From Hydrogenimonas urashimensis (GTDB taxonomy: Bacteria; Campylobacterota; Campylobacteria; Campylobacterales; Hydrogenimonadaceae), in contig NZ_AP023212.1 in the NCBI RefSeq assembly GCF_016593255.1, forward strand, positions 794,001-858,000: a stretch of DNA of 64,000 nucleotides. Direction: 5' to 3'. Of the stretch, positions 17,054 to 49,580 are shown one piece after another. The notes beneath the pieces were generated by a model. It made no database searches. It was not told where the DNA came from and was given only the letters and a program-made list of their open reading frames with translations. Position 1 is the first letter of the stretch. Each line of letters begins with the position of its first letter. A program made the translations under genes and the position numbers.

Positions 17054-17067
17054 TTGATTTATATCAA
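17054..17067 (+). promoter_or_regulatory. FNR/NNR-type box for the first redox operon
   Basis: TTGATTTATATCAA is a perfect TTGAT-N4-ATCAA site. A TATAAT at 17091-17096 predicts a transcription start near 17103, placing the box centre near -42, the class II activator position. It controls the operon beginning at 17126. Confidence 0.88.
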
Positions 17068-17125
17068 TTGTCATTCGAACTTTTTTAGTATATAATTGCA
17101 TAAATTGACGAAAAAAGGGGAGCAA

Positions 17126-17473
17126 ATGGAAATTTTACCGTCAGACGCAGAAAAGATCGAAGTGCCCGGTGCCACCGTCGACTTCTACAAATACACGAAA
17201 GACGGAATTACGTACTACCAGTTCGATACATCCCGCTGCGGGCCGCCGGAGCCGATGGTCAACGCCATGAGCGGCCTGAAACTTATCGATGGTCCGGATA
17301 AGAAGCTCGTGATGATCAACCACAAGAAACCGATGGGCTTGCTGGATAAAATCGGACAGAATTACGATATAAAAGTCGAAACACTCGAAGACGGGCGCGT
17401 CAAACTTATCTTCAGCTATCAAGAAGGCGCCAGCGAAAAGGCGAATCTAAACGACGCCGCCTGCCACGGATAA
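17126..17473 (+). CDS. DUF2249-type protein
   Basis: A 115-residue protein. Its centre, FDTSRCGPPEPMVNAMSGLK, followed by KKLVMINHKKPMGLLDKIGQNYD, matches the DUF2249/TusA-like fold, with a cysteine just before the conserved PPEPM motif. DUF2249 proteins commonly accompany hemerythrin and DUF1858 domains in nitrogen-oxide-stress loci. The start is the ATG at 17126, with AAGGGGAG before it and a perfect FNR-type promoter 30 bp upstream. It is the first gene of the plus-strand redox operon. A tail ends in DAACHG. The biochemical role is unknown. Confidence 0.8.
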   Translation: MEILPSDAEKIEVPGATVDFYKYTKDGITYYQFDTSRCGPPEPMVNAMSGLKLIDGPDKKLVMINHKKPMGLLDKIGQNYDIKVETLEDGRVKLIFSYQEGASEKANLNDAACHG

Positions 17474-17576
17474 CGGTTGCATGAAAAACGGAAAGTGAAA
17501 GTGAAATTTTTCACCGATCGCTTTTCGTTGTCATCCGTTTAGCTACAACGTTCATTTTTCACCAAAAAGGGTTTTT

Positions 17577-18815
17577 ATGTTCAATGTATCGCGTGAATTC
17601 GCACCGCCTTTTTCACTGATCGCTCCCTTTTTCGTTGCAGGAAGCATCTTCTATCTGCTGGCATCTTCTATGCTGCTTGGCTTCGGCACGGATATTACCC
17701 ATTACGACATCTCCGTTGTCGCATGGGCACACCTTTTCCTGCTGGGATTCGTGATGATGATCATTTTCGGAGCGATGGCGCAGCTGGTACCGGTGGTGTT
17801 GGAAGTGGGGCATTTCAGTGTCGATTTCTACTATCTCATCTGGCCGATACTGGCCCTTGGAACCGTTCTTATGGTCATGGGCTTCCTTTTCATGCCTGGC
17901 ATGCTGCCCTACGGCGGATTGATGGTACTGGTCTCGATGCTCATTTTCCTGGCCGATACGATCATGACCCTCCGGAAAGTGGAACATGTCTCATTGACGG
18001 TCAAAACCGTAGCGGTGACCAACGCCTTTTTGCTGCTGGGCATTCTCGTCGGCTTCGCGATGGCACTGGGTATCGGCACCGGTGTGAATATCGATATCGC
18101 CAAATGGCTGAATGCCCATATCGTCCTGGTGCTGGGCGGTTATGTCACCCTTACCATCATGGGCATGAGCCTGATCCTTCTGCCGATGTTCGGCCTCTCC
18201 CACGGATTTGACGAAAGTCCGATCCGTCTCGGGTTCAAGATCATGGTGGACGGCGTGCTTTTCTATCTGCTCGCCACCCTGTTCGATTCGGAGGATTTGC
18301 GTTTTCTGGCAATGATGACGATGATTGGCGCATTGGGACTCTACCTCTATCAAATCTGGCTCATTTACAAAACCAGGGCTCGAAAAGAGGCCGATGTCTG
18401 GTTCAAATCGATGGTGATCGGATACGCTTCACTGGCCATCGCTTTGATTTTGGGCTTCATCGCTCTTGTCGGACACCTGGAGCGCGTCGGACTGGCCGCC
18501 GCCTGGTTCCTGATTATGGGGTTTTTTACATTCCTCATCAACGGACACCTCTACAAAATCATCCCTTTCCTGGTCTGGTTCGAGCGTTACAGCCCGCTTG
18601 TCGGCAAACAGAAAGTCCCGATGCTGGCCGACATGGTCCCCAAAAAGATGGCGGAATACCAGTTTTGGTTCTCATCCGCCGGCGTCGGCATCGCCGGCCT
18701 GGGACTGCTTCTTGGCAGCGATGAGCTCTTCAAAGCGGGTGTCACATTCATTGCAACCGGTGCCATTTTTCTCGTCACCAGCGTAAAATGGATGATGGGA
18801 TTCGGAAAAAAGTAG
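17577..18815 (+). CDS. Heme-copper-like / NnrS-like polytopic membrane protein
   Basis: A 412-residue protein with about twelve membrane helices. Candidate heme-ligand histidines lie in helices: WAHLFLLGFVMMIIFGAMAQ, NAHIVLVLGGYVTLTIMG and NGHLYKIIPFLVWFERY. The pattern recalls subunit I of heme-copper oxidases and NnrS, but the adjacent HH and H-E copper-site residues of true oxidases or NO reductases are not evident. A paralogue lies at 20581-21843 in the convergent operon and shares YKIIPFLVWF. Expression from the FNR-type promoter at 17054 ties it to nitrogen-oxide respiration. The function is unknown. Confidence 0.75.
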   Translation: MFNVSREFAPPFSLIAPFFVAGSIFYLLASSMLLGFGTDITHYDISVVAWAHLFLLGFVMMIIFGAMAQLVPVVLEVGHFSVDFYYLIWPILALGTVLMVMGFLFMPGMLPYGGLMVLVSMLIFLADTIMTLRKVEHVSLTVKTVAVTNAFLLLGILVGFAMALGIGTGVNIDIAKWLNAHIVLVLGGYVTLTIMGMSLILLPMFGLSHGFDESPIRLGFKIMVDGVLFYLLATLFDSEDLRFLAMMTMIGALGLYLYQIWLIYKTRARKEADVWFKSMVIGYASLAIALILGFIALVGHLERVGLAAAWFLIMGFFTFLINGHLYKIIPFLVWFERYSPLVGKQKVPMLADMVPKKMAEYQFWFSSAGVGIAGLGLLLGSDELFKAGVTFIATGAIFLVTSVKWMMGFGKK

Positions 18816-18898
18816 TTTCGCCGCCAAGTTTTGACAGGCAAAGGCAGAACGAATGAAACGCGATTTGCAAAAATTTTCACTTAAAAAGGAGAAGAGAG

Positions 18899-19210
18899 AT
18901 GTCCGAAAAAATTACAAAAGAGCAGGTTTTCGACGCAATCCGGAAAGTCGTCGACCCGGAAGTCGGGTTCAATCTCGTCGAAATGGGGCTCATTTACGAT
19001 GCCGTTATCGACGATGACAACAATGTCAAAGTGGTCATGACCCTATCCACACGCGGATGCCCTCTGCACCAGATGCTGACCCAGTGGGTCAAGGATGCGG
19101 TCAAGGAGATTCCCGGTGTCGGTGACGTGGAGGTCGAGGTGGTCTGGGAGCCGGCATGGAACATCTCCATGGCGGAAGATCATGTGAAACAGAAACTCGG
19201 AGCCCTCTGA
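18899..19210 (+). CDS. MIP18/PaaD-family (DUF59) metal-sulfur cluster assembly protein
   Basis: A 103-residue DUF59 protein. It has the family core VVDPEVGFNLVEMGLIYD and the reactive-cysteine motif TLSTRGCPLHQML, followed by VEVEVVWEPAWNISMAED. Such proteins (SufT, PaaD, MIP18) help load Fe-S clusters on targets. Here it sits between a heme-copper-like membrane protein and a DUF1858 protein in an FNR-type-controlled operon, suggesting repair or maturation of a metal centre under NO stress (inference). Confidence 0.9.
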   Translation: MSEKITKEQVFDAIRKVVDPEVGFNLVEMGLIYDAVIDDDNNVKVVMTLSTRGCPLHQMLTQWVKDAVKEIPGVGDVEVEVVWEPAWNISMAEDHVKQKLGAL

Positions 19211-19211
19211 A

Positions 19212-19514
19212 GTGGGGGAAGAAAAGTCCAACCACAACCCATGGCTGCATGAGCTCCGCCACCTCTACGGCGCGGGTATTCTGCTCTTCTACTACGCCAA
19301 ATGGCCCATCCTTGTCGGGTGGCCCCTTTTGCGACTTTATCTCGATTATCCCGACAACTGGATCATCGACGCACTCTGGATATGGTGCCTGATTCTTGTC
19401 ATAAAAGACTTTTACGTCTGGTTTATTAAAAAAGAGAGTTACTGTACTGCAAAATCGTGCAAAAACGAAAAAGAGGAAAAAAATGGAGATTCGTCCGAAC
19501 ACGAAAGTCAATGA
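19212..19514 (+). CDS. Small two-helix membrane protein, function unknown
   Basis: A 100-residue protein starting at GTG one base after the MIP18 stop codon. It has two membrane helices (about residues 20-40 and 48-70; LRLYLDYPDNWIIDALWIW between them) and a charged C-terminal tail with two cysteines (YCTAKSCKNEK). Its last 32 bases overlap the start of the DUF1858 gene. I do not recognise the family. It may be a small partner of the twelve-helix protein. Confidence 0.7.
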   Translation: MGEEKSNHNPWLHELRHLYGAGILLFYYAKWPILVGWPLLRLYLDYPDNWIIDALWIWCLILVIKDFYVWFIKKESYCTAKSCKNEKEEKNGDSSEHESQ

Positions 19515-19995
19515 CCTGTTAAACGCCTATCCCGAACTGGAAGCGTTTTTGATGAAGCTCAACCCCAAATACAAAAAACTCAAAAACCCGATTCTGCGCC
19601 GTACTGTCGCCAGAATCGCCACGCTGACACAGGTTGCCGGAATCGGCGGGTATGAGACGCTGGAATTGGTCAATCTTTTACGAAAAGAGGTGGGCCAGCC
19701 GCCACTGGACGCTTCGGGCCATCCCAAAGAGACAGAAGAGACCCGAAAGGCGCCGCAATGGCTTCAAAATGAACCCAAAACCATCCTCGACGCCAACCAA
19801 CTCCTCGATGAAGAGAAAAACCCTCTGGCGGAAGTGAGCAAAGTACTCAAAACACTCGATAGCGGCGAGATTGTCATGATTCGAAGCGACTTTTTGCCAT
19901 CTCCTCTCATCGACACTTTCAAAGAACAGGGCTACGATGTCTACGCGAGCGAAGCAGAAAAGGGACGTTTCCTGACCTATATCAGGAAACCGTGA
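19483..19995 (+). CDS. DUF1858 plus DUF2249 fusion protein
   Basis: A 170-residue cytoplasmic protein. Residues 1-65 form a DUF1858 domain (NTKVNDLLNAYPELEAFL, then NPILRRTVARIATLTQVA), the domain found at the N-terminus of the Fe-S repair protein ScdA. The C-terminal 70 residues look like a DUF2249 domain (SGEIVMIRSDFLPSPLID, KEQGYDVYASE). It ends the plus-strand operon and overlaps the 3' end of the convergent FmdE-like gene by 14 bp. An accessory role in NO-damage repair is inferred. Confidence 0.82.
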   Translation: MEIRPNTKVNDLLNAYPELEAFLMKLNPKYKKLKNPILRRTVARIATLTQVAGIGGYETLELVNLLRKEVGQPPLDASGHPKETEETRKAPQWLQNEPKTILDANQLLDEEKNPLAEVSKVLKTLDSGEIVMIRSDFLPSPLIDTFKEQGYDVYASEAEKGRFLTYIRKP

Positions 19996-20584
19996 GAATC
20001 GCCGGCCAAAGATCGGTCTCCAGAAGTATCTTTTTCACCCGCTCCTGCCACAATTGGCCGAAACGCTGCTTCTCCTGCTGCGTTGCGGTCCCCTGCATCA
20101 GTTTCTGCATCAGTGGCTGCATATCGGGGTGAGCCGGTACGATGGAGGGGTTGTAGACCATCTCCACATGGGCGGCATTGTCCAGGCGTGTCAGCCGCAC
20201 TTCGGCACCCAATTCCACCCCGTAGAAAAGACGGTTGTTGCGGGCAAATTTGCCGCCAAGGCCTTTGAAGCCTCCCTCGTTCGAAGCTCCCGTCACCAGG
20301 CCGATGCAACTGCCGATGACTCCGGCGACTCCCTCATCCAGTGCCTCGCGTATTTCCACTTTGACATTTCCGCGTACCGGAAGATCATCTTGGTAGAGCT
20401 TTTTCAGGCCCATCTTGGTCATCAGCCACGCCCCCGCCACGGTGGGACAGGAGTGGCCGGCCAGTTTGACCATGTCAAGATAGTCGTACGTGATGCGTCC
20501 ATTCTCCACGGCGCCGAGAATGTCGGCCAGCGGGTCGATGGTTTCGATCGGTTCGACTTCGTCGAAAAAAGCGGGATAGTTCAT
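19982..20584 (-). CDS. FmdE-like protein
   Basis: A 200-residue protein resembling the N-terminal domain of FmdE, a metal-binding protein first seen with formylmethanofuran dehydrogenase. The key motif is LAGHSCPTVAGAWLMTKMG (Cys-His metal site), with GVIGSCIGLVTGASNEGGF later. The ATG at 20584 overlaps the stop of the membrane-protein gene (ATGA) and has AGGAATTTT before it; the longer upstream frame is within that gene. It is the last gene of the minus-strand redox operon. No methanogenesis or other formylmethanofuran genes are nearby, so the partner is unknown. Confidence 0.8.
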   Translation of the reverse strand: MNYPAFFDEVEPIETIDPLADILGAVENGRITYDYLDMVKLAGHSCPTVAGAWLMTKMGLKKLYQDDLPVRGNVKVEIREALDEGVAGVIGSCIGLVTGASNEGGFKGLGGKFARNNRLFYGVELGAEVRLTRLDNAAHVEMVYNPSIVPAHPDMQPLMQKLMQGTATQQEKQRFGQLWQERVKKILLETDLWPAILTVS

Positions 20585-21843
20585 AAAATTCCTTTGTTTT
20601 TGAATTGGTGGTAGATTTTTGCGGCACCCAGCAGATTGGCGCCGTAAAGAAGGGATTCGATGAAAAAAAGGAGTGCCGTCACCTTCCACAGCAGCGGCAT
20701 GAAAAACGACGCGATACCGAAAACCGGCAACGCCCAATGAATCCAAAGATGCGGTTTCATCCCCTTGGCCGGTATGATGTCTCCCATCATAGGGCACTCC
20801 AAAACTCCTTTGGCATTCAGGTGGAACCAGACCAGAAAGGGGATGATTTTATAACTCATGGCAAAAATGATACTGAGAAAAAAGTACCCAAAGAGCAACG
20901 CCCCCGTATCGAAAAATGTTTCTAACTGAAAACCGTAGTATAGAAACAGCGATATCGAGGAGGCTGCCAGAGAGACAAGGCCTGTGCGCCAGAGCCAAAC
21001 CGTCGTATCGGCGACGGGTCGCTTTCTCTGGGAGAGGCGTCTGAGCGTCACCAGCGCAAAGGCGAGCAGCAATACTCCCACTGCCGCATCGAACAGTGTC
21101 ACTGCCGACTGGGAGACGATATAGAAAGGTACCTGCAGTACCAAAAGAGCCAGTATACTCATCGGAAACCATCGCCGCACCGCTTCGGGATACGGCGGTG
21201 TGACATAAAACATTTCAATGACCTGGAAGGCCACCGCCATGATCAGCACGGCGATCCATCCGAAAAGCATGAAATGCATGTGGACCGTGCGAAGCCCCTG
21301 GGGCGGCAGGCCGATATCGACACCCAGGAAGGCCAGCATCACCAGCAGGGCAAAAAAGAGGCCAAAGCCCAATCCCCCGACGGCGACCATCATGCCGATG
21401 ACGGAGGGCGTTTTGTTCTCGACACGCAGCAGTTTCGAGAACATCAGGAAAACGACGAAACCGAGGGAGCCAAGAAGCAGTGCCAGCGCCGTATGGAACA
21501 GGGCCGTTTTCGCAAAAACAAACCCTCCGACGAGCATCAACGTGCCCAAAGCCATGAAAGCATGGATCCATCGAGCATGGTACATCGGATCTTTGATCGA
21601 TGCTCCGGCAATGACCGGAAGCATCTGAAAGAGTGCCCCCACCATCGCCATGCCTGCCATGCCGAGCACGACGAGATGGACGACGGCCACCGTATCCGGT
21701 GCATCCCAGAGACCCAAAGCGGCCGGGTCGGCAATGAAGAGCGCTATGGCCGTCAACAGACCGAAAGCCGGAATGGTAAGAAAAAAGCGAAGAATCACTT
21801 CAAACGGCGGCGCCTGATCGAGCGAAAGTCCCTGATTAAACAT
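20581..21843 (-). CDS. Heme-copper-like / NnrS-like polytopic membrane protein, paralogue
   Basis: A 420-residue, about twelve-helix membrane protein, a paralogue of the protein at 17577-18815. Shared features are VVHLVVLGMAGMAMVGALFQ against WAHLFLLGFVMMIIFGAMAQ, a histidine-bearing RTVHMHFMLFGWIAVLIM helix, and MSYKIIPFLVWFHLNAKG. The HMH motif in this copy could bind heme or copper, while the diagnostic NO-reductase glutamates and HH pair are absent. It overlaps DUF2249 upstream and the FmdE-like gene downstream. A role in NO sensing, defence or electron transfer is inferred from the FNR-type promoter and neighbours. Confidence 0.75.
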   Translation of the reverse strand: MFNQGLSLDQAPPFEVILRFFLTIPAFGLLTAIALFIADPAALGLWDAPDTVAVVHLVVLGMAGMAMVGALFQMLPVIAGASIKDPMYHARWIHAFMALGTLMLVGGFVFAKTALFHTALALLLGSLGFVVFLMFSKLLRVENKTPSVIGMMVAVGGLGFGLFFALLVMLAFLGVDIGLPPQGLRTVHMHFMLFGWIAVLIMAVAFQVIEMFYVTPPYPEAVRRWFPMSILALLVLQVPFYIVSQSAVTLFDAAVGVLLLAFALVTLRRLSQRKRPVADTTVWLWRTGLVSLAASSISLFLYYGFQLETFFDTGALLFGYFFLSIIFAMSYKIIPFLVWFHLNAKGVLECPMMGDIIPAKGMKPHLWIHWALPVFGIASFFMPLLWKVTALLFFIESLLYGANLLGAAKIYHQFKNKGIL

Positions 21844-22108
21844 CGCAGAAATCCTGTAACATTCTTTTCAGATCGAAAGATGGGTTTTTCGTAAAGAGTA
21901 TGTGCCACTCCCCCGACTCCGTTTCACACGCATCGAAACGGATGCCCTGTTTTTGGGCGATCATCAGAAGAGGACGGGGATACCGGTGAATTTGCAGATG
22001 CAGACAGTTTCTGCCGTCCAGCCGCTTCATCATTTCAACACTGCGTTCAAGGGGTTCGGGGTGGTTCAGGCCCCGAACATCCAGTTCGATCACTTCGACA
22101 GGGCTCAA
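21836..22108 (-). CDS. DUF2249 protein
   Basis: A 90-residue single-domain DUF2249 protein (ELDVRGLNHPEPLERSVEMM, then MIAQKQGIRFDACETESGEW). Unlike the 17126 protein, it lacks the cysteine before the PEP motif. It overlaps both its neighbours by 4-8 bp, hemerythrin upstream and the twelve-helix protein downstream. DUF2249 with hemerythrin is a recurrent pairing in nitrogen-oxide-response loci. Confidence 0.85.
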   Translation of the reverse strand: MSPVEVIELDVRGLNHPEPLERSVEMMKRLDGRNCLHLQIHRYPRPLLMIAQKQGIRFDACETESGEWHILFTKNPSFDLKRMLQDFCDV

Positions 22109-22536
22109 CGGGCTTTCATCTTTTCGACAAGATCCTTTGCCTGCTCACCGAGCACATTGTCGCACATCGCATAAAGCATCTGCTCCTCTTTCATGTTGTG
22201 CTGCTGCAGCAGAATCATCAATGTATCGGCTACGGAAAAAAAACGCTCCTTGTCCGCTTTGTCAATGGCATCCTTGAGCTGTTCGAGAAGTCCGCGCACC
22301 TGATTGTGCTCGTAGCGCATCACCTGCGTAGGCCCCTCTGTGCTCAGCGTCGCCGCTTCGAAAGCGGGAAAGAGTATCTCCTCCTCTTTGTCAAAATGCT
22401 TCAGCGTATCGACCATGAACTCTTCGAAATGTCTGAACGCCTCGTCGAAATCGCCGCTGCTGACAGCCTGCTCGGCTTTGGCGAACTCTTCGTCACAAAG
22501 GCGATGCTCATCTTTCATATAGTTCGATATCTCCAT
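22105..22536 (-). CDS. Hemerythrin-like (HHE) protein
   Basis: A 143-residue di-iron protein. Ligand motifs in order: KDEHRLCDEEF (H, E), LKHFDKEEEILFPAFE (H, E), RYEHNQVRGLLEQL (H) and QQHNMKEEQMLYAM (H, E), the standard hemerythrin/HHE set. Such domains bind O2 or NO and form the core of the Fe-S repair protein YtfE/ScdA. The ATG at 22536 is preferred because AAGGAG lies five bases before it. It lies downstream of a 24-codon micro-ORF and an FNR-type box. Confidence 0.92.
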   Translation of the reverse strand: MEISNYMKDEHRLCDEEFAKAEQAVSSGDFDEAFRHFEEFMVDTLKHFDKEEEILFPAFEAATLSTEGPTQVMRYEHNQVRGLLEQLKDAIDKADKERFFSVADTLMILLQQHNMKEEQMLYAMCDNVLGEQAKDLVEKMKAR

Positions 22537-22564
22537 TTTCACTCCTTCTAAATTTTGGGCGGCT

Positions 22565-22639
22565 CTATTTGAACATCAGAAAAATTTTGCCCATCAGCAC
22601 TGCGGTGAGGGCAAGAAACGAAACCAGAATCCAGTCCAT
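22565..22639 (-). CDS. 24-residue membrane micro-protein
   Basis: A short ORF starting MDWILVSFLALTAV and ending KIFLMFK, a single hydrophobic helix with a lysine near each end of the second half. GGAAGG is seven bases before its ATG. It is the first ORF after the FNR-type promoter at 22696 and lies 28 bp before hemerythrin. The predicted transcription start (about 22661) puts it inside the transcript. Conservation cannot be tested here, so the call is tentative. Confidence 0.55.
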   Translation of the reverse strand: MDWILVSFLALTAVLMGKIFLMFK

Positions 22640-22695
22640 TGTCCATCCTTCCGATTGATTATCTAAGATTTTACAAAAAAAGAGTTTTCAAAAGA

Positions 22696-22709
22696 TTGAT
22701 ACGGGTCAA
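22696..22709 (-). promoter_or_regulatory. FNR/NNR-type box for the second redox operon
   Basis: On the minus strand this reads TTGACCCGTATCAA, a TTGAC-N4-ATCAA site. TAAAAT at 22673-22668 predicts a start near 22661, so the box centre lies at about -41.5. It drives the micro-ORF, hemerythrin, DUF2249, membrane protein and FmdE-like genes. Confidence 0.82.
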
Positions 22710-28888: not shown

Positions 28889-28945
28889 CGTGTGCTGCAA
28901 CCTGTTTTTAGCGCCCATTATAAAGGTTTGTAGTTTATACTTTCC

Positions 28946-36199: not shown

Positions 36200-37909
36200 T
36201 TACGCGCCCGGAATCTCCTGTCGGTGTTCGACAGAATAGGTGAAGGTAGGCGTCGTCATATTGTAGATATACTTGATGAACTTGCCTGTTTTGGCATCAT
36301 AGATACCGATACGGCCGGTTGTCCACTCGGAAATGAATGTCCATTTGCCATGGTTGGCAGGTTCGGCATGCAGCAGCCTCGGCTGAACCGGATGCTTGAC
36401 CTTTTTGCCTTTTTTGGGTGTATAGGTCACAAGCTTCTCTTTGGAAAGCTTGGATGCCTTTTCTTTACCCTTGACAGTCTGATACTGCGTTGCATCCCAT
36501 GTCTGCAGAATTTTGCCGGTATGGGCATCGATCAGGTGGCCTTTTTTCTTGCCGACTTCAATGATGCGGTCGGTTTTGAGTGTCTGTTTGTTGATCAGAT
36601 AGACTTTGTTGTAATTGGCCGGTCCGCCAAGTACACAGTCTGACCAGATATAGGGTGTATCTTTGCTTGTACCGACAAAGAGACCGCCGCCCGCAGTCGG
36701 CACGTTGGCCACGACTTCGTTGTTCATGTTCCAGATAACGACATTACCGACATTCATGCTGTTTGTCGCATTGAGCTGGCCGTACTTGTCATTATGCCAG
36801 GAACTTCCCTGTCCCGGGTGCGGTTTTGTGCCAGGTCCTGTATAGATCTTGGCTGCCAGTTTTTTCGTTTTGAGGTCGATGACGCCCATCAGGTCGCTTC
36901 CCTGGGATGCGACGTAAACGAACCGTCCATAATCGACACCTTCGTTTTCGAACGCATCATGCAGAATTTTACCGATATTGGGAATATCTCCGACAATCGG
37001 GAAATCGGGTTTGCTGTAGTCTACGATGTAGACGTGTCCGGCATCTTTAAGAGCGAAGCTGAAATAGGGCGCATAGGGCGTATCCGCAATATAGGCGACA
37101 CGGCTCGGGCCGATGTTGCCATCCGGATCGATAACGCTGGAAGTCGGGTAAACTTTGAGCGGTTCAAGCGTTTTGGCGTCACAAAGTACCGCACCGCCCG
37201 GATTGTAATCACCGGCCATCACATATTTGCCATCGGGAGAAACTGCCAGACCGCGGGACTCCTGTCCTACCTGTACACTCGCGATAGCAGGCTGACCCGG
37301 AGCGTTGAGGTCGAACATCGTCAAACGGCCGGATCGGCTGATGGAATAGGCGTAGCGGGGCATACGCTTGTTGGTCACCGTAACGTGAACCGCAAATCCC
37401 GCTTTATGGCGTGAAAGCACTTTTCCGGTCGTACCGTCGATAAAGTCGACCAGTGAAGCGTCACGCTCTGTGGCGAAAACGATATCTTTGACATCTTTGA
37501 CATCGACCGGTTTCGGATACTTCTTGTAGAGCGCATCCCGGTCAGCCAGTTTTTTCCACGTCTTTTTGACTTCATCAAGAGAGAGTTTGAGCTCGACTGT
37601 GTTTTTCCAGTTCATGAGCCAATCGACCATGCCTGCCGCATCGTCTCGGCTGAACATATGCTTCCATGAAGGCATCGCCGTACCTTCACGCCCGTTCAGG
37701 ATCGTGTCGGCAAGCATCTGGGCATTTTTCTTTTTCAGCGCCTTGGGACGAAGGTCGGAACCGACACCACCCTGGTGGATCGGACCGTGACATCCCTGAC
37801 ACTCTTTTTCGTAGGTTTTGGCAAAGTCCATTTTCGATGTACCGGCATACAGTGAACCGGTCACCATGGAAACAGCGGCAGCCATACCAAGAAGTTTTGC
37901 AATCTTCAT
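36200..37909 (-). CDS. nirS: Cytochrome cd1 nitrite reductase
   Basis: A 569-residue periplasmic enzyme that reduces nitrite to NO. The signal peptide is MKIAKLLGMAAAVSMVTGSL, and the heme c domain holds CQGCH (ECQGCHGPIHQGG) with the methionine region GTAMPSWKHMFS. An eight-bladed heme d1 propeller follows (about residues 140-569; GPGTKPHPGQGSSWHNDKYG carries catalytic-type histidines). It is flanked by hairpins on both sides and has AAGGAG before its ATG. It lies in the same operon as norCB. Confidence 0.97.
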   Translation of the reverse strand: MKIAKLLGMAAAVSMVTGSLYAGTSKMDFAKTYEKECQGCHGPIHQGGVGSDLRPKALKKKNAQMLADTILNGREGTAMPSWKHMFSRDDAAGMVDWLMNWKNTVELKLSLDEVKKTWKKLADRDALYKKYPKPVDVKDVKDIVFATERDASLVDFIDGTTGKVLSRHKAGFAVHVTVTNKRMPRYAYSISRSGRLTMFDLNAPGQPAIASVQVGQESRGLAVSPDGKYVMAGDYNPGGAVLCDAKTLEPLKVYPTSSVIDPDGNIGPSRVAYIADTPYAPYFSFALKDAGHVYIVDYSKPDFPIVGDIPNIGKILHDAFENEGVDYGRFVYVASQGSDLMGVIDLKTKKLAAKIYTGPGTKPHPGQGSSWHNDKYGQLNATNSMNVGNVVIWNMNNEVVANVPTAGGGLFVGTSKDTPYIWSDCVLGGPANYNKVYLINKQTLKTDRIIEVGKKKGHLIDAHTGKILQTWDATQYQTVKGKEKASKLSKEKLVTYTPKKGKKVKHPVQPRLLHAEPANHGKWTFISEWTTGRIGIYDAKTGKFIKYIYNMTTPTFTYSVEHRQEIPGA

Positions 37910-38176: not shown

Positions 38177-38208
38177 ATCGTAAGGAAGAGTTGCCCCTTC
38201 CTTGCGAT
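38177..38208 (-). promoter_or_regulatory. Hairpin immediately 3' of norB
   Basis: ATCGTAAGGAAG and CTTCCTTGCGAT form a 12-bp stem (one G-U pair) with an 8-base loop, beginning at the norB stop codon. No U-run follows in the minus direction. It resembles the hairpins after nirS and napA. Confidence 0.68.
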
Positions 38209-39662
38209 CAGGCCGCTGCGGCAGCGACCGCCTCACTCTTCTCTTCGGCCGATTCAACGGCACCGATGGTCAAAAGATCCCATGCCAGATAGACGAATCC
38301 GATGAAAGTGACCAGCCCCATAACCAGACGCCATGCCTGGGCCTGCAGCATCCAAGGCAGCTCCTGGGCAACGAAGTAGGCATCCCATCCGCCGCCGAGA
38401 TCGGCGCGTTCGACAAGGACCTGTTCGTAACCGGCTATGGTCAGCGCAACAGTCATACCCAGAACACCGAAGGTCACCAGAACGATCGCCATTTTACTTT
38501 TGAATGTCATCGTCATTTTCTTGATGCCGTAGGAGCCCTGGACACCCAGGTACATCATACCGATCAGGATCGTCGCGTAGGCGCCGAAGAAGGCCAGGTG
38601 GCCGTGCGCTGCCGTGAACTGTGTGCCGTGGGTATAGATATTGACCTGCGGCAATGTATGGAAGAAGCCCCAGATACCGGCACCCAGGAAGTTACCGAAT
38701 GCGTTGAGCGCGATCCATCCCATCGCAGGTGTGTTGTTGACGGCATGTCCGGTCTGACCCGCTTCACAGTGGCCCTGCTCTTTACCCCAGTCGTAGAGGA
38801 CATGGACGAACATCGCGACCAGCGGCACAGGCTCGAGTGCGGAGAAGAGCGCACCGATCTCCCACCAGTATTCGGGTGTTCCGATCCAGAAGTAGTGGTG
38901 TCCAAGACCGAGGATACCGGAACCAAACAGCATCAATACTTCGATCCAGAGCCACATCTCGACGATTTCGCGTTTCGCTCCAAGGATTTTGATCAGTCCG
39001 TAGGCCGCCAGTGAACCGACGAAAACTTCCCAGGTCGCCTCGACCCACAGGTGGATAACCCACCACCACCAGTACTGATCCATGGAGATGTTGTCGGTAA
39101 AGAACATACCGCACAGATAAAGGCCGGCCAGTGCGAAGAGGTCCGCGACCATAACGGTCATGATGCCCGTTTTTTTGCCTTTCATAAAGGTGGCGAAGAC
39201 ATTCCAGTAGAAAATCAATACGACGACGACAATACCGATATCCGCCCAGCGGGGTGCTTCGATATATTCACGTCCTTCGTTGATGAACCAGATGGTCGAC
39301 TCGTTGCCCGGTCCGACCTGAATGAAAATATAGACAAGAACCACTACGGTTACGGCTGCCGTCAATACCCAGAAGGCAAGTTTGCCAAGGCCGATTGCCA
39401 CGGCTTCTTCACCCGTTTCATCGGGTATCATATAATAGACTGAACCGATCATGGCATAAAGCATCCAGACAACCAACGCGTTGATATGCACCATACGCGC
39501 TACGTTGAAATCGAACAGTTCAAACAGAAAACCCGGATAGAGAAATTGAATGGCAGCTATCAGTCCCATCAGCAGCTGTGCGCCGAAAAGGACAAGCGCC
39601 ACACGAAAATAGTTCATCGCCAGTTTTTGCGATTCATATTTCAAATGAGCACTAGTGAGCAT
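38208..39662 (-). CDS. norB: Cytochrome c-dependent nitric oxide reductase subunit B
   Basis: A 484-residue, twelve-helix member of the heme-copper superfamily that reduces two NO to N2O. Typical cNOR segments are ARMVHINALVVWMLYAMIGS, VIHLWVEATWEVFVGSLAAY (histidine and glutamates), HHYFWIGTPEYWWEIG with the HH pair, and AAHGHLAFFGAYATI with the heme ligands. There is no N-terminal quinol-type extension, and norC lies upstream, so it is the cNOR type. It overlaps norC by 11 bp. Confidence 0.97.
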   Translation of the reverse strand: MLTSAHLKYESQKLAMNYFRVALVLFGAQLLMGLIAAIQFLYPGFLFELFDFNVARMVHINALVVWMLYAMIGSVYYMIPDETGEEAVAIGLGKLAFWVLTAAVTVVVLVYIFIQVGPGNESTIWFINEGREYIEAPRWADIGIVVVVLIFYWNVFATFMKGKKTGIMTVMVADLFALAGLYLCGMFFTDNISMDQYWWWWVIHLWVEATWEVFVGSLAAYGLIKILGAKREIVEMWLWIEVLMLFGSGILGLGHHYFWIGTPEYWWEIGALFSALEPVPLVAMFVHVLYDWGKEQGHCEAGQTGHAVNNTPAMGWIALNAFGNFLGAGIWGFFHTLPQVNIYTHGTQFTAAHGHLAFFGAYATILIGMMYLGVQGSYGIKKMTMTFKSKMAIVLVTFGVLGMTVALTIAGYEQVLVERADLGGGWDAYFVAQELPWMLQAQAWRLVMGLVTFIGFVYLAWDLLTIGAVESAEEKSEAVAAAAA

Positions 39663-41416: not shown

Positions 41417-41602
41417 TTGGATGTAATTCTTACCCTGGTTTTCAGTATCGTGATGCTTTTTTTCATGATTTTTCCTGCCATGAAAATCACGGAATGGATC
41501 GATACACGCTTTCCGATTCCCCGGAAACTCTACACGCCGGTGATGCTGACAATAGTTGTGCTTCTATCCCTTTGTATCGGACTTTTTTTAAAATTTGCAT
41601 GA
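41417..41602 (+). CDS. Small two-helix membrane protein
   Basis: A 61-residue ORF starting at TTG with AAGGA upstream. Two hydrophobic helices (VILTLVFSIVMLFFMIF and TPVMLTIVVLLSLCIGLFL) flank a polar turn ITEWIDTRFPIPRK. It ends 22 bp before the preferred start of the Crp/Fnr gene and is probably co-transcribed with it. The function is unknown; it could be a small accessory of the nor system. Confidence 0.6.
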   Translation: MDVILTLVFSIVMLFFMIFPAMKITEWIDTRFPIPRKLYTPVMLTIVVLLSLCIGLFLKFA

Positions 41603-41624
41603 AAGAAAACGGAAACAGAAAATC

Positions 41625-42266
41625 ATGATGAAAAAACTGAAAAAATTTTACCTCTTCAGACACATGAGTGAAGAGAAGCTTGCCCGGCTCGAGGAGATTT
41701 CCAACATCGTCGAATACAAAAAAGGGACCATCCTCTTCTTCGAAGGTGACGAAGCAAAAAATATGATCGTGCTTATCGATGGCATCCTGCAGGTTTACAA
41801 AACGGACCAGAAGGGAAACAAGGTGATTTTGCACCATTTCTTCCCCATCGATGTTATCGCCGAAATCGTCAATCTCGAACATATGCGTTATCCGGCCTCG
41901 GCAGAGTTCGAAACGGACGGCAGGGCGCTTGTGATCAACTACGAACTTTTCGAAAAGGAATTTCTCAAAGATCCGGAAGTCTCCTTTGCATTCATCAAAT
42001 CGCTTTCGAAGAAGATCAAATATCTCGAAAACGTCATTGCCACCAACATGGTGATGAATTCGACGGCACGGGTTGCCAAATTCATCTGCGAACACGGTCA
42101 TGAAATCTCATCTTTGAAAAAGAGCATGATCGCCGCTGATTTGAACATGACTCCCGAAACGCTTTCGCGCATATTGAAAAAGCTTTCGACACTCGGCCTT
42201 ATCGAAAAGAAAAAAGACGAAATTATCGTTCTGGACAAAGAGGGGCTTGAAACCTTCTATCTGTAA
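41625..42266 (+). CDS. Crp/Fnr-family regulator, probable nitrogen-oxide regulator
   Basis: A 213-residue regulator. The N-terminal cyclic-nucleotide-type sensor (about residues 8-125) has KGTILFFEGDEAKNMIVLID. The C-terminal HTH has TARVAKFICEHG and the recognition helix MTPETLSRILKKL, with the E..SR residues that in FNR contact TTGAT. There is no cysteine cluster for an Fe-S switch, so it belongs to the Nnr/Dnr/NssR-like group that senses NO, probably by heme. It sits among the boxes it is predicted to bind. An ATG one codon later is also possible. Confidence 0.88.
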   Translation: MMKKLKKFYLFRHMSEEKLARLEEISNIVEYKKGTILFFEGDEAKNMIVLIDGILQVYKTDQKGNKVILHHFFPIDVIAEIVNLEHMRYPASAEFETDGRALVINYELFEKEFLKDPEVSFAFIKSLSKKIKYLENVIATNMVMNSTARVAKFICEHGHEISSLKKSMIAADLNMTPETLSRILKKLSTLGLIEKKKDEIIVLDKEGLETFYL

Positions 42267-42619: not shown

Positions 42620-45424
42620 ATGTCATCTATGTCACGACGTGACTTCCTCAAGAGTGCAGCGGCCGCAACGGCTGCCAGCGCGGTGGGGATGTCTGTTCCT
42701 AGCGAAGTAGAGGCCGAAGCCAATTCTGCTGAAGCAGGATGGCGATGGGACAAGGCGGTCTGCCGCTTCTGTGGTACCGGATGCGGTATTATGGTTGCAA
42801 CCAAAGACGGTAAAATCGTTGCCGTCAAAGGCGACCCTGCGGCACCGGTCAATCGCGGTCTGAACTGTATCAAAGGATACTTCAACGCGAAAATCATGTA
42901 CGGTGCCGACCGTCTGACCGTGCCGCTACTGCGGATGGATGAAAAGGGCAATTTCGACAAACATGGAAAATTCCGCCCTGTCAGCTGGAAGCGCGCTTTC
43001 GACGAAATGGAAAAGCATATCCGCAAAGCGCTCAAAGAGGGTGGTCCGGAAGCGGTCGCGGTATTCGCATCCGGTCAGTATACGATTCAGGAAGGGTATG
43101 CCGCCCATAAAATGATGAAAGCGGGATTCCGCTCCAACGCGATCGACCCCAACGCTCGCCACTGTATGGCATCGGCGGTTGTCGGTTTCTTCCAGACATT
43201 TGGTATCGACGAACCGTCCGGATGTTACGACGACATCGAAATCACCGACACGATCGTCACCTGGGGTGCGAACATGGCGGAAATGCACCCGATTCTGTGG
43301 GCGCGCGTCACCGACCGTAAACTCTCCGATCCCGATCGCGTCAAAGTCGTCAACATCTCAACCTATCGACACCGATGTTCCGACCTGGCCGATATGGAAA
43401 TCATCTTCCGACCGGGTTCCGACCTGGCGATGTGGAACTATCTCGCACGCGAAATCGTCTACAACCATCCGGAAGTGATCGACTGGGATTTCGTCAAAAA
43501 ACACATCATTTTTGCCACCGGTTTCGTCGAGACAGGTTACGGAATGCGCATGCCCGACGAAGCGAAAAAACTGGGTTACAGCGACAAAGAACTCGAAACG
43601 ATCAAACAGGAAGCCAATCATACCGTTTCCGAAAGAGAAGCTCCGGGTCTCGCACCGCTGGGCTACAAAGCGGGCGACAACATGAAAATGGTTCACCGCG
43701 GCCATGCACTCGGACACTGGGAGATCAGCTTCGAAGAGTTCAAAAAAGGCCTCGAGCCCTACACACTCGACTATGTCGCAAGCGTTGCAAAAGGCGATCC
43801 CGACGAAAGTATCGAATCGTTCAAGAAAAAACTTGAAACGCTCCGTGATCTTTACATCGACAAGAGCCGAAAGATGGTCAGCTTCTGGACGATGGGTATG
43901 AACCAGCACTATCGGGGTTCCTGGGTCAACGAGCAGTCCTATATGGTCCACTTCCTTCTTGGAAAGCAGGCCAAGCCGGGCATGGGAGCTTTCTCGCTGA
44001 CCGGTCAGCCTTCTGCTTGCGGTACGGCACGCGAAGTCGGTACCTTTACCCACCGTCTGCCGGCCGACATGCTGGTCAAGATTCCAAAACACCGAAAGAT
44101 CGCGGAAAAAATCTGGAAAATTCCGGAAGGTACGATCAACCCGGTCGGTTATCAGCACATCATGAATATCCACCGCCAGATCGAAAGTGGAAAGATCAAG
44201 TTCGCCTGGGTCAATGTCTGCAACGCCTACCACGATTCCGCCAACGCCAACCATTGGATCAAAGCGGCGCGCGAAAAAGATGTCTTCATCGTCACGTCCG
44301 ACGGATACCCGGGTATTTCGGCAAAAGTCTCCGACCTGGTCCTTCCTTCTGCGATGATCTACGAAAAATGGGGCGCCTACGGAAACGCCGAACGACGAAC
44401 GCAGCACTGGCGGCAGCAGGTTCTTCCCGTCGGTGACGCCATGAGCGACACGTGGCAGTGGGTCGAACTCTCCAAACGCTTCACTGTCAAAGACCTGTGG
44501 GGCGAATGGACCATCAAAGGCGGCAAAAAGCTGCCCAACGTCATCGAAAAAGCGAAGAAGATGGGCTACAAAGAGGACACAACGATGTTCGAGATTCTCT
44601 TCGCCAACGACTATTATAGAAGCTTCAAAGCCGACGACCCGATCATGGAAGGGTTCGACAACTCCGAAGTTTTCGGCGACAGCCGCAACGTTGTCGGCAG
44701 CGACGGCAAAGTCTTCAAAGGATACGGATTCTTCATCCAAAAAGCGCTCTGGGAAGAGTATCGCAAATTCGGTATCGGACACGGACACGACCTGGCCGAT
44801 TTCGATACCTACCACCGTGTACGCGGTCTGCGCTGGCCTGTCGTCAACGGAAAAGATACGCCCTGGCGCTTCAACGTCAAATACGACCCGTATGCGCGAA
44901 AACATGCGAAACCGGGAGAAGAGTTCGCCTTCTACGGACCGGCGCTCAAAACAATCAAACGGGGTAACCTCAAGAAAATCGATCCGAAGGCGGGCAAGAT
45001 TCATCTTCCGAACAAAGCGAAGATCTTCTTCCGCCCCTATCTGGATCCGACCGAACAGCCGGATAAAGAGTACGATACCTGGCTCTGTACGGGTCGTGTT
45101 ATCGAACACTGGCATTCCGGTACGATGACAATGCGTGTTCCCGAACTCTTCCGTGCGATGCCGGAGGCGTTCTGCTACATGAACCCCAAAGATGCGAAAG
45201 CCAAAGGCTTCAAAGACGGCGATCTCGTCTGGATCGAGAGTCGACGCGGCAAAGTCAAAGCCCACATCCAGACACGCGGACGGAACCGACCGCCCAGAGG
45301 GCTGGTCTTCGTACCCTGGTTCGACGAGCGCGTCTTCATCAACAAGGTGTGCCTCGACCATACGTGTCCGATGTCCAAACAGACCGACTACAAAAAGTGT
45401 GCGGTCAAAATATACAAAGCGTAA
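42620..45424 (+). CDS. napA: Periplasmic nitrate reductase, catalytic subunit
   Basis: A 934-residue molybdoenzyme reducing nitrate to nitrite in the periplasm. A Tat signal ([18 protein letters not shown]) leads to the [4Fe-4S] motif [18 protein letters not shown] with its distant fourth cysteine in [10 protein letters not shown]. The bis-MGD molybdenum ligand cysteine is in [14 protein letters not shown]. The length matches Campylobacterota NapA, which is longer than E. coli NapA. AGGAGG precedes the ATG. It leads the operon napAGHBFLD. Confidence 0.98.
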
Positions 45425-45435
45425 ACCGCTTCGTC

Positions 45436-45456
45436 GCCGGGAGAGCTGCTCCCGGC
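45436..45456 (+). promoter_or_regulatory. Hairpin immediately 3' of napA
   Basis: GCCGGGAG and CTCCCGGC form an 8-bp stem with a 5-base loop, about 12 bases after the napA stop codon. A weaker hairpin, CAACC/GGTTG, follows at 45465-45481. No U-tract is present, so it seems to be an intercistronic processing or stabilising structure. Confidence 0.7.
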
Positions 45457-45512
45457 CGAATCACCAACCTCGAGAGGGTTGAAATTTCAATGGAAAAAGG
45501 TGGATTGAGTCT

Positions 45513-46346
45513 TTGAACACTCAAAATCCGAAAAAAGAGAACAAACCCAAAATCACCGAAAGACGGCGTTTTCTGACCATCATGGCGCAAAGCGTCGGAC
45601 TCTCGGCGCTGGGCGGTATCGTCTGGATGGGGTATGTGGAGGAGGCGAAGGCTTCGCCGCTTTTGCTGCGTCCGCCGGCAGCGTTGCCGGAGCAGGATTT
45701 TCTGCGCACCTGCATCAAATGCGGACAGTGCGCGGAAGCCTGTCCATACGATACGCTTTTGATGGCCAAGCCGGGTGACGGCGTGCCGATGGGTACACCC
45801 TATTTTATTCCAAGAGATGTTCCGTGCTACATGTGCACGGACATTCCCTGTGTGCCGCCCTGCCCGACAGGCGCACTCGATCAAAAGAGCGTGACGACCG
45901 TCAAGGATGGCAAGGAAGAGCTCGATATCAACAAGGCCAGGATGGGCCTGGCGGTGGTCGATCACGAGTCGTGTATCGCATTCTGGGGTATCCAGTGCGA
46001 TGCGTGCTACCGCGCCTGCCCCGTTCTGGGTGAAGCGATAACGATCGATTTTATACGGAATGAACGGACGGGAAAACATGCCAAACTGGTGCCGGTGGTC
46101 CATGCGGATCACTGCACGGGATGCGGCCTGTGCGAGCATGCCTGCGTGACGGAGAAAGCGGCGATATTCGTTCTGCCAAGGGAAGTCGCCATGGGCAAAC
46201 CGGGCGACTACTACGTCAAAGGATGGAGCAAAAAGGATCAGGAGCGCATCAAACAGCGCAGTCTGGAAAACCTGAAGACGAAAACCGAGCGGAGCAAAAA
46301 GAAACCGCAGGAGTATCTGAATATGGATGAGGAGCTCTACGAATGA
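45513..46346 (+). CDS. napG: NapG ferredoxin-type quinol dehydrogenase subunit
   Basis: A 277-residue periplasmic Fe-S protein with a Tat-type signal (ERRRFLTIMAQSVGLSALGG) and four [4Fe-4S] sets: CIKCGQCAEACP, CYMCTDIPCVPPCP, CIAFWGIQCDACYRACP and CTGCGLCEHAC. With NapH it moves electrons from menaquinol to NapB/NapA. The start is TTG, with AAAGGTGGA upstream. It overlaps napH by 4 bp. Confidence 0.95.
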   Translation: MNTQNPKKENKPKITERRRFLTIMAQSVGLSALGGIVWMGYVEEAKASPLLLRPPAALPEQDFLRTCIKCGQCAEACPYDTLLMAKPGDGVPMGTPYFIPRDVPCYMCTDIPCVPPCPTGALDQKSVTTVKDGKEELDINKARMGLAVVDHESCIAFWGIQCDACYRACPVLGEAITIDFIRNERTGKHAKLVPVVHADHCTGCGLCEHACVTEKAAIFVLPREVAMGKPGDYYVKGWSKKDQERIKQRSLENLKTKTERSKKKPQEYLNMDEELYE

Positions 46347-47173
46347 AAAAGCTCTTTAAAATGCGGTATCTGATACTTCGCAGGATCGTCCAAATCGGCC
46401 TCCTTTTTCTCTATTTCGCGGGAAACGCCTACGGATGGAGTATTCTGAAAGGAACACTCAGCGCATCCGTACTGTTTGACACTATTCCGCTGGCCGATCC
46501 CTTTGCGATACTGCAGATGCTTTCGGCCGGGGCGATGATGGGCATCGACGTTTTTGTCGGTGCCGCCATCATTGTCCTCTTCTACGGCATCGTCGGCGGC
46601 AGGGCTTTTTGCAGCTGGGTCTGTCCGGTCAACCTGATAACCGACCTTGCCAACTGGCTGCGCCGAAAACTTCTGCTCGACAAAGTGGAGAGAAAAGTGT
46701 GGGTAAGCCGAAATGCCAGATACTGGGTACTGGGCTTGTCCCTTATCGTCTCAGCACTTTCGGGACTGGCGGCGTTCGAACTTGTCAGTCCCATTACGAT
46801 ATTCAACCGGGGTGTCATCTTCGGCATGGGCATGAGCGGCGGTGTACTGCTGGCGATTTTTCTGTTCGATCTCTTCGGGGTCAAGAACGGATGGTGCGGA
46901 CATATCTGCCCGCTTGGCGGCTTCTATTCGCTGATCGGGCGTTTCAGTCTGATACGTGTACGCCATAACGAACCCAACTGTACGCTCTGCATGAAATGCA
47001 AAGAGGTGTGTCCCGAAAGTCAGGTCCTGTTCATGATCGGAAAAAAGAGCACGACCGTCAACATGGGTGAATGCGTCAACTGCGCCCGCTGTATCGAAGT
47101 GTGCGATGATGATGCGCTCGGGTTTAGTCTAAGAGATTTTGCAACTACCAAAGCCAAAGGAGACAACAAATGA
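46343..47173 (+). CDS. napH: NapH membrane quinol dehydrogenase subunit
   Basis: A 276-residue protein with about four membrane helices and cytoplasmic Fe-S sites. CSWVCPVNLI and CGHICPLGGF are the conserved CxxxCP motifs; CTLCMKCKEVCP and CVNCARCIEVC are two [4Fe-4S] clusters. It oxidises menaquinol together with NapG. It overlaps both neighbours at ATGA-type junctions. Confidence 0.95.
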   Translation: MKKLFKMRYLILRRIVQIGLLFLYFAGNAYGWSILKGTLSASVLFDTIPLADPFAILQMLSAGAMMGIDVFVGAAIIVLFYGIVGGRAFCSWVCPVNLITDLANWLRRKLLLDKVERKVWVSRNARYWVLGLSLIVSALSGLAAFELVSPITIFNRGVIFGMGMSGGVLLAIFLFDLFGVKNGWCGHICPLGGFYSLIGRFSLIRVRHNEPNCTLCMKCKEVCPESQVLFMIGKKSTTVNMGECVNCARCIEVCDDDALGFSLRDFATTKAKGDNK

Positions 47174-47742
47174 AAAAATTGATTCTAACGGCTCTGTCTG
47201 CTGTGTTGGTACTGGGCATTAGTGCCTGTGCCGGCAAAAGCGGAGAGAGTGCGACTAAAATGGATGAGCAAGAGCTGAACAGCAAAGCTGCTCCGATCGT
47301 AACCGAAGAGGAACTTGGACTGCGTAAAGAGAATCTTTACTCAGAAGAGACAAAGCCGGTCAAAGCAGAATTCAACCGGCCGGCACCGGGTGCGGCAAAA
47401 ACATTCGAGCGTTCCTATGAAAACGCACCGCCGCTCATTCCCCACAGTGTCGACGGTCTGCTTCCTATCACCAAGAAAAATAACGCATGTCTGGGATGCC
47501 ATATGCCGGATGTCGCGCCGAGCGTCAAAGCGACTCCTATTCCGCCGACCCATTTCATGGATTTCCGCACACAGAAAAAACTGGACCATCTGGCGCAGCA
47601 GCGTTTCAACTGTTCCCAGTGCCACGTACCGCAGGCGAACGTCAAACCGCTTGTCAAAAACAACTTCAAGCCCGACTATCGACGGCCTGAAGACAAAAGC
47701 AGATCCTTCCTGATCCACGACCTCAACGAAGGTGTCAAGTAA
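47170..47742 (+). CDS. napB: NapB di-heme cytochrome c subunit, with lipobox
   Basis: A 190-residue di-heme cytochrome. Heme motifs are CLGCH (NNACLGCHMPDVAPS) and CSQCH (FNCSQCHVPQANV). The family stretch PPLIPHSVDGLLPITKKNNA is clear. The signal MKKLILTALSAVLVLGISAC ends in LGISAC, a lipobox, so this NapB may be a lipoprotein held at the membrane and not a soluble periplasmic protein. It transfers electrons to NapA. Confidence 0.95.
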   Translation: MKKLILTALSAVLVLGISACAGKSGESATKMDEQELNSKAAPIVTEEELGLRKENLYSEETKPVKAEFNRPAPGAAKTFERSYENAPPLIPHSVDGLLPITKKNNACLGCHMPDVAPSVKATPIPPTHFMDFRTQKKLDHLAQQRFNCSQCHVPQANVKPLVKNNFKPDYRRPEDKSRSFLIHDLNEGVK

Positions 47743-47743
47743 G

Positions 47744-48262
47744 ATGATCGACGAAGAGAGACGGGGGCTTTTCGCCTCCCTCTCCTCGGCGATAAAAAAA
47801 GAGAAACAACGCGAAAAACCGGTTGTCCGGCCTCCCTACAATACCGATCCGTCTCTTTTTTACAAACTGTGTCCAGACTGCTCCGACAAGCGGTGTGCCG
47901 GAGTGTGTGAAGAGGAGATTATCGTCATTGACGAGAGGGGAACCCCGACACTCGATTTTTCCAAAAACGGGTGCACCTTTTGCGACGCCTGCGCCGACGC
48001 GTGTGACAGCGGAGTTTTAAGCGACAAAACGCTAAACTTCGTCGATACGACGGTCGAAATCGATGTTCTAAAATGTGTCGCGTGGCACCAGGTACTTTGC
48101 AGCAGCTGCAAAGATCCATGTCTTGAAAACGCCATCGTGTTTCTCGGACTGTTCCGGCCGGAAATCGATATGGACCGTTGCACGGGTTGCGGATGGTGTC
48201 GTCCGGTCTGTCCGGCCGATGCCATTTTGTTCATTCCCCCAAAAAGGAGAAAGGAAGCATGA
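47744..48262 (+). CDS. napF: NapF ferredoxin-type protein
   Basis: A 172-residue cytoplasmic Fe-S protein. Cysteine sets include CTFCDACADAC, CVAWHQVLCSSCKDPC and CTGCGWCRPVCP, with an extra N-terminal set CPDCSDKRCAGVC. NapF is thought to help NapA maturation. The ATG at 47744, one base after the napB stop, is preferred to a GTG inside napB. Its stop overlaps the ATG of napL. Confidence 0.92.
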   Translation: MIDEERRGLFASLSSAIKKEKQREKPVVRPPYNTDPSLFYKLCPDCSDKRCAGVCEEEIIVIDERGTPTLDFSKNGCTFCDACADACDSGVLSDKTLNFVDTTVEIDVLKCVAWHQVLCSSCKDPCLENAIVFLGLFRPEIDMDRCTGCGWCRPVCPADAILFIPPKRRKEA

Positions 48263-49221: not shown

Positions 49222-49580
49222 ATATTTCAAGTATCGTAGTACAGGTACGCCAGGAGCATGTCGACGAAGTGGTCGAAACGCTAAAAAATTCGGATTTTTG
49301 CGATTATCATTTTCATGACAAATCGATCGGAAAAATCATCGTGACCGTCGAAGGAGAAGGCGTCGAAGAGGAGATCGCGAAGGTCAAACAGATTCAGGCC
49401 GTCCCCCACGTGATAGCAGCGGACATGATGATGGCATACAGCGAAGACGAACTCGACAAGGAGCGTTCCAAGCTCGAAATGGGCGGTCCAAACGTCCCCG
49501 AAATGCTCAACGACGATTCCATACGCGCCGAAGATATCGTCTACCATGGTGACTTGAAAAAGAAAGATTTCGGTTTTTAG
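49218..49580 (+). CDS. napD: NapD maturation chaperone
   Basis: A 120-residue cytoplasmic protein that binds the Tat signal of NapA. ISSIVVQVRQEHVDEVVETL and HVIAADMMMAYSEDELD fit the ferredoxin-like NapD fold. It closes the operon with a 4-bp overlap with napL. A C-terminal extension of about 35 residues is usual in this phylum. Confidence 0.9.
   Translation: MNISSIVVQVRQEHVDEVVETLKNSDFCDYHFHDKSIGKIIVTVEGEGVEEEIAKVKQIQAVPHVIAADMMMAYSEDELDKERSKLEMGGPNVPEMLNDDSIRAEDIVYHGDLKKKDFGF

Follow-up and report, generated by a model that had tools for sequence, protein, structure and literature searches.

Membrane proteins of the heme-copper oxidase (HCO) homologue class 'HCOH', reportedly described by Pei et al. 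in 2014 (Protein Sci 23:1220; cited in PMC11218638), are said to have 12 transmembrane (TM) helices, an HCO fold and two conserved histidines that suggest one heme, and to occur in a denitrification or nitric oxide (NO) context. NnrS (PF05940), a heme protein found in NO regulons, likewise has 12 TM helices and is homologous to HCOs. Soluble proteins of small domain families have been linked to the same pathways. DUF2249 (COG4309) has been tied to nor genes, with which it is co-regulated, since 2005 (PMC1274295). In Thermus, loss of drpAB leaves NarG still made but at one tenth of its activity, and expression of nar and dnr is no longer under nitrate control in the mutants (PMC6282519). The DUF59 protein SufT matures iron-sulfur (Fe-S) proteins under high demand (PMC4982691). 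Here, a window of 64,000 nucleotides (794001-858000 of the complete 2.30-Mb chromosome of Hydrogenimonas, Campylobacterota) was found to contain two convergent operons, each of which encodes an HCO-like membrane protein (MemA and MemB) together with small proteins that include DUF2249, DUF59 and hemerythrin members (Table 1). We propose that the operons are two cassettes of one accessory module, induced by NO or nitrogen oxides, which would protect, repair or mature metallocofactors around a one-heme membrane hub. We give this proposal a probability of about one half.

MemA and MemB are homologous to each other (hhalign 99.9%, E 1e-36), in agreement with the paralogy expected from sequence alone. 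Neither has a significant Pfam or NCBIfam match, and some of their homologues match COX1 weakly. The original prediction had called them unknown, which is too strong in view of the HCOH class reportedly described in 2014. Alignment-based AlphaFold models were confident (pLDDT 91.5 for MemA and 92.5 for MemB), and Foldseek retrieved CcoN as the best PDB match of both (E 4e-7 and 1e-6; TMq up to 0.78 and 0.71) as well as other HCO catalytic subunits, so that the predicted heme-copper-like fold was recovered. A profile of the wider HCOH family (A5), comprising Campylobacterota, Thermus, rhizobia, Paracoccus and Haloprofundus, reaches CcoN (3mk7) by sequence at 2e-8 and picks CcoN-size proteins in 24/24 genomes searched; two of these proteins were checked and proved to be CcoN. 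PDB sequence searches gave no match with query A1 and only one spurious weak match (E 0.045) with query A2. With the A5 profile, the first four-helix unit (EU) of MemA matched EU3 of CcoN and EU2 matched EU1. Circular permutation of the HCO fold was considered and rejected, as permuted profiles were no better than the native order against NnrS, NorB and CcoN. Both histidine-bearing units resemble the last unit of CcoN best.

Exactly two histidines are invariant and common to both families (129 sequences), one in TM2 and one in TM6, and they are retained in the homologues of Thermus, rhizobia and haloarchaea. The TM7 HH pair, the TM10 HxH motif and the NorB glutamates, judged with a NorB alignment as reference, are absent, as the original prediction had claimed for the HH pair and the glutamates. 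Further invariants common to the two proteins map to the face predicted to be cytoplasmic: Q69/Q73, R269/R275, D273/D279 and Y326-K-I-x-P-F-L-x-W334, the last within the common motif YKIIPFLVWF. From the charge of the loops, we read the N-terminus as inside. MemA and MemB thus have the 12-TM catalytic-subunit fold of the HCO superfamily and lack the six histidines of catalytic HCOs and NO reductases (NORs); by model and alignment they are divergent HCO folds without catalytic ligands. A single b-type heme is predicted between the TM2 and TM6 histidines. HCO homology, 12 TM helices, two conserved histidines and the denitrification context are the features reported for the HCOH class, so the class fits and the membrane fold is not new. 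The Campylobacterota triad, the hemerythrin cassette, the Nss box and the link to Drp are shown here. NnrS differs in that MemA and MemB have no NnrS Pfam match, and in NnrS proteins from this phylum the invariant histidines are in TM2 and TM10 rather than TM2 and TM6. Moreover, NnrS is present as a separate gene in this genome.

The genes around the membrane proteins recur as sets. In almost every one of 80 related Campylobacterota loci, DUF2249, MemA and DUF59 lie side by side, and the same arrangement is found around the divergent homologues of Campylobacter and Arcobacter. The minus-operon set, (FmdE)-hemerythrin-DUF2249-MemB, is equally recurrent. In an Arcobacteraceae metagenome-assembled genome (L046), both are joined in a single run, p1-MemA-DUF59-FmdE-hemerythrin-MemB, which speaks for a common function of the two convergent operons. 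The MemA set often has as neighbors genes for Crp-family regulators, napA/G/H (nap neighbors were named by their sequence), and siroheme or heme d1 genes, among them those for NirJ and AhbA-AhbB-like proteins.

On an Aliarcobacter butzleri plasmid (L182:5664-7537), a DUF2249-HCOH-DUF59 triad is located between Tn3-family and IS21 transposase genes, which suggests that the triad can move. A single-sequence tblastn search found no match of MemB on plasmids. In two Campylobacter loci (L144, L145) the triad adjoins not nap or nir but a gene that, judged by eye, is methionine sulfoxide reductase-like. One genome (L110/G167) has a hemerythrin-DUF2249-MemB cassette with its box and NosZ, without MemA or a NorB match.

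In a study of Nitrosophilus, following the Wolinella work of Kern and Simon, TTGA-N6-TCAA was given as the Crp/Fnr consensus for Campylobacterota (PMC11539149). In Wolinella, Nss regulators react to nitrate, NO and N2O (PMC6682613). Both operons have class II type promoters, with box centers at about -43.5 (plus operon) and -41.5 (minus operon) as judged from the -10 hexamers. The box by itself is not rare within the window. Nevertheless, its placement at the cassettes exceeds chance, because it was found no more than 160 bp ahead of the leading gene in 62/72 plus-type cassettes, against a mean of 0.58 and a maximum of 4 in shuffles. In 51 of these 62, a TATAAT-like hexamer follows exactly 29 bp past the box center, which is the class II -41.5 layout. 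The same box precedes 21/26 minus-type cassettes, ahead of hemerythrin or, where FmdE leads, ahead of FmdE. This is the arrangement of Nss/Dnr promoters, and regulator binding and induction are predicted from it. The link to denitrification and NO regulation drawn in the original prediction is borne out by this box, by gene context and by co-occurrence with NirS, NorB and NosZ. At window positions 28946-28959, an exact TTGATGTGCATCAA box closely precedes two further genes, a siroheme-synthase-like one (28951) and, on the opposite strand, one (27893-28918) that resembles the AhbA-AhbB-like fusions of related loci. The same regulon therefore probably covers heme d1 genes.

Related modules were found outside the phylum. 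In T. thermophilus, one run holds narCGHJIK, DUF2249, DUF1858-DUF2249-DUF2249, a short HCO-like protein, a protoglobin, HCOH and DUF59; its HCOH matches MemA at 3e-30 and the DUF59 proteins match at 1e-20. In R. etli and S. meliloti, the order is norCBQD, hemN, DUF2249-HCOH-DUF2249x2-DUF59, nnrS, nirK (the tandem DUF2249 was established in the Ensifer homologue), so that nor-linked DUF2249 genes flank an HCOH gene. Paracoccus sp. TOH has HCOH-DUF2249-DUF59-nirK. Since rhizobia have the HCOH module alongside NnrS and NorQD, it is not merely a substitute for them. No membrane or DUF59 partners are mentioned in the part of the COG4309 account considered here (PMC1274295). The original prediction had named absence of the gene set from other denitrifiers as grounds for giving it up, and the set was found in them. 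Thermus plasmids (L179:10530-10964, L183:14521-14955) also encode, within the drp gene run, a 144-aa hydrophobic protein, apparently with 4 TM helices, which matches the last part of COX1 and is possibly a single-unit HCO homologue.

From these data a mechanism can be proposed. Nitrogen oxides or NO would switch on both cassettes. In each, a membrane protein of HCO fold that has lost the binuclear center would hold one b-type heme by its TM2 and TM6 histidines, and would offer its conserved cytoplasmic face (the RxxxD loop, YKIxPFxxW and a P/K-rich loop) to small soluble partners. These partners, DUF2249 (TusA-like), DUF59 (SufT/MIP18), the DrpB-like DUF1858-DUF2249 protein, hemerythrin and FmdE, may handle iron, Fe-S clusters or sulfur. 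The module would thereby protect, repair or mature the metallocofactors of nitrate, nitrite, NO and N2O respiration during NO production, with NO binding by the heme, or its redox state, as trigger or sink.

The main rival to maturation or repair is sensing. The module could be a Drp-like sensor of nitrate or NO: the heme membrane protein would detect the ligand, and the DUF2249 and DrpB-like proteins would signal to Crp/Fnr regulators. The Thermus run with HCOH and DUF59 starts with DrpA/DrpB-type genes, drpAB mutants lose nitrate control as described above, and Crp-family genes are near 34/80 loci. The Hydrogenimonas plus operon resembles this run in having MemA and DUF59 homologues together with p5, which is homologous to a Thermus DrpB-type protein over 153 aa. 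However, DrpB consists of DUF1858 and two DUF2249 domains whereas p5 has only one DUF2249, so p5 does not have the domain composition of DrpB. Thermus adds the protoglobin and short HCO-like protein and has no hemerythrin or FmdE at that locus. Neither operon encodes a DNA-binding, kinase or receiver domain; DUF59, hemerythrin and FmdE are better suited to metal handling; and the Campylobacter triad stands alone with no regulator adjoining. Furthermore, the drpAB phenotype includes low activity of an enzyme that is made (PMC6282519), which suggests a role in maturing or maintaining enzymes. We consider a signal relay unlikely.

Co-occurrence was examined in 298 Campylobacterota genomes taken in a single even draw, with presence lists transcribed by hand from search tables. 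MemA was found in 109 genomes and MemB in 60. NosZ accompanies MemA in 79/109 genomes (odds ratio 47) and NirS accompanies core MemA in 39/43, while MemB has odds ratios of 77 with NirS and 71 with cNor. Hydrogenimonas itself encodes cytochrome cd1 NirS, a canonical cNorB and nap within the window, and NosZ together with one NnrS elsewhere; it is therefore genetically a full denitrifier. MemB is present in 41/48 cNor genomes, and a NorQ-type (CbbQ_C) gene was found neither in this genome nor in the 43 genomes with Campylobacterota-type cNorB only. NorQ was found only in the 5 genomes that also have NorB of another class, about 40% identical. This would suit an assembly machine for a single denitrification enzyme, for example one that inserts non-heme iron into cNorB in place of NorQ/NorD, and COG4309 was proposed as important for NO reductase (PMC1274295). 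However, rhizobial modules adjoin norQD, three cNor genomes are without both HCOH families, and many triad genomes are without NorB. Quinol NORs usually lack NorQD too, which also speaks against dedicated cNorB assembly. We regard such a machine as improbable, and a NorQD substitute as sole role was rejected in view of the coexistence in rhizobia.

The soluble proteins were compared with known families. Although p1 scores 17 bits for DUF2249, below the Pfam cut-off of 29.5, it aligns to the family and conserves PPEPM, H66 and a C-terminal C113 in 88 sequences. The invariant residues of p1, the minus-operon DUF2249 protein, DUF59, FmdE and hemerythrin suggest metal or thiol chemistry. DUF1858 and hemerythrin had been taken for the two halves of ScdA/YtfE, an assignment that did not survive. 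The N-terminal half of those proteins is ScdA_N (DUF542) with a CC motif, whereas p5 is DrpB-like (3e-22) and has no cysteine, and is therefore not an equivalent of ScdA_N. The hemerythrin resembles the YtfE/ScdA/DnrN proteins (repair of iron centers, RIC) in having a full set of likely diiron ligands, but it stands alone, without an ScdA_N domain or CC motif, and scores 41.5 bits against a YtfE equivalog cut-off of 254. Its PDB matches were spurious TAL-repeat matches and were discarded. A more indirect link to nitrogen would follow if DUF2249 proteins were TusA-like carriers of sulfur or persulfide and the membrane protein handled sulfur. TusA matches are weak for the DUF2249 proteins here and stronger in the Ensifer tandem protein (9.7e-8), and p1, DUF59 and FmdE have conserved cysteines. 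Nevertheless, the DUF2249 proteins other than p1 have no conserved cysteine, the box and gene context are of the NO and nitrogen oxide type, and the module also occurs in rhizobia, Thermus and Campylobacter, which makes sulfur trafficking very unlikely. That the membrane proteins are themselves new NO or O2 reductases, as their fold and denitrification context might invite, is scarcely credible given that the TM7 pair, TM10 HxH and NorB glutamates are missing and the genome already encodes a canonical cNorB.

Several points weigh against a metallocofactor module. SufT did not repair clusters damaged by reactive oxygen species (PMC4982691), and the authors of the Drp study favor nitrate sensing (PMC6282519). 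The co-occurrence statistics over the 298 genomes ignore phylogeny. Moreover, 24/109 MemA genomes have no NorB, NirS or NosZ match, so that the module is not strictly tied to full denitrification, and three genomes with NirS and cNor (G008, G187, G276) have neither HCOH family. The module is thus neither exclusive to denitrification nor indispensable for it.

All anatomical features of the original prediction were found in place by ORF (open reading frame), sequence and domain checks, among them the convergent operons with their 14-bp overlap, a box at each promoter, the shared YKIIPFLVWF, the 24-aa ORF and the gene content (Table 1). Codon differences of the 24-aa ORF among its five relatives fall mostly at third positions (147 vs 63 and 21). 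A hairpin at 19967-19990 spans the convergent gene ends; it is terminator-like on the minus strand and is possibly a shared terminator.

Table 1. Features of the two operons and of denitrification genes in the same window (window positions).
Feature	Position	Strand	Basis
Crp/Fnr (Nss/Dnr-type) box TTGATTTATATCAA, exact, plus operon	17054..17067	+	conserved upstream of 62/72 related cassettes
-10 hexamer TATAAT, plus operon	17092..17097	+	sequence; spacing conserved in 51 relatives
p1, DUF2249-like, 115 aa	17126..17473	+	Pfam PF10006 E 0.004; conservation in 88 sequences
MemA, 12-TM HCO homologue (HCOH), 412 aa	17577..18815	+	invariant H52 (TM2), H181 (TM6)
DUF59/MIP18 (SufT-like) protein	18899..19210	+	Pfam PF01883 2.5e-20; invariant C54, H57
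p4, small membrane protein, GTG start	19212..19514	+	recurs in related loci
p5, DUF1858-DUF2249, DrpB-like	19483..19995	+	Pfam 3.9e-14 and 5.7e-6; 3e-22 to Thermus DrpB-type protein
Convergent overlap of the last genes of both operons (stop ends), 14 bp	19982..19995		sequence
FmdE-like protein, invariant GHSCPTVAG (H43, C45; numbered without start Met)	19982..20584	-	Pfam PF02663 3.8e-7
MemB, 12-TM HCO homologue, 420 aa	20581..21843	-	invariant H56 (TM2), H188 (TM6)
Minus-operon DUF2249 protein	21836..22108	-	Pfam 1.4e-9; invariant H16, H69
Hemerythrin-like diiron protein	22105..22542	-	Pfam 5.1e-22; invariant H13, C16, H49, E53/E54, H79, H115, E119
24-aa single-TM ORF MDWILVSFLALTAVLMGKIFLMFK	22565..22639	-	conserved in 5 Hydrogenimonas relatives
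-10 hexamer TAAAAT, minus operon	22668..22673	-	sequence
Crp/Fnr box TTGACCCGTATCAA, minus operon	22696..22709	-	box upstream of 21/26 related cassettes
Cytochrome cd1 nitrite reductase	36200..37909		
Canonical cNorB	38208..39662		2e-93 to P. aeruginosa cNOR
Crp/Fnr regulator	41595..42266		
nap cluster	~42620..49580		

The membrane fold class and the link of DUF2249 to nor are already known, so the module is not categorically new. Judged against the open literature, what appears to be new is the definition of the cassettes and of their regulon, and the way they unite with Drp and with the nor/nirK locus of rhizobia. Phyla that are far apart conserve DUF2249, DUF1858 and HCOH beside nar, nap, nir and nor, and denitrifiers produce NO while relying on Fe-S, heme and copper enzymes. 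Tentatively, these genes may encode a widespread NO-regulated maturation or repair complex of Campylobacterota, Thermus and rhizobia, in which a one-heme degenerate HCO would sense or sink NO and gate the DUF2249, DrpB, DUF59 and hemerythrin partners, which in turn would keep Nap/Nar, Nir, Nor and Nos working. If true, such a complex would also explain the Thermus drpAB phenotype. The module also bears on how Campylobacterota run cNOR, including FeB insertion into their type of cNorB, without NorQ. Uniting the Thermus Drp, rhizobial nor/nirK and Campylobacterota cassettes makes the function testable in model strains.

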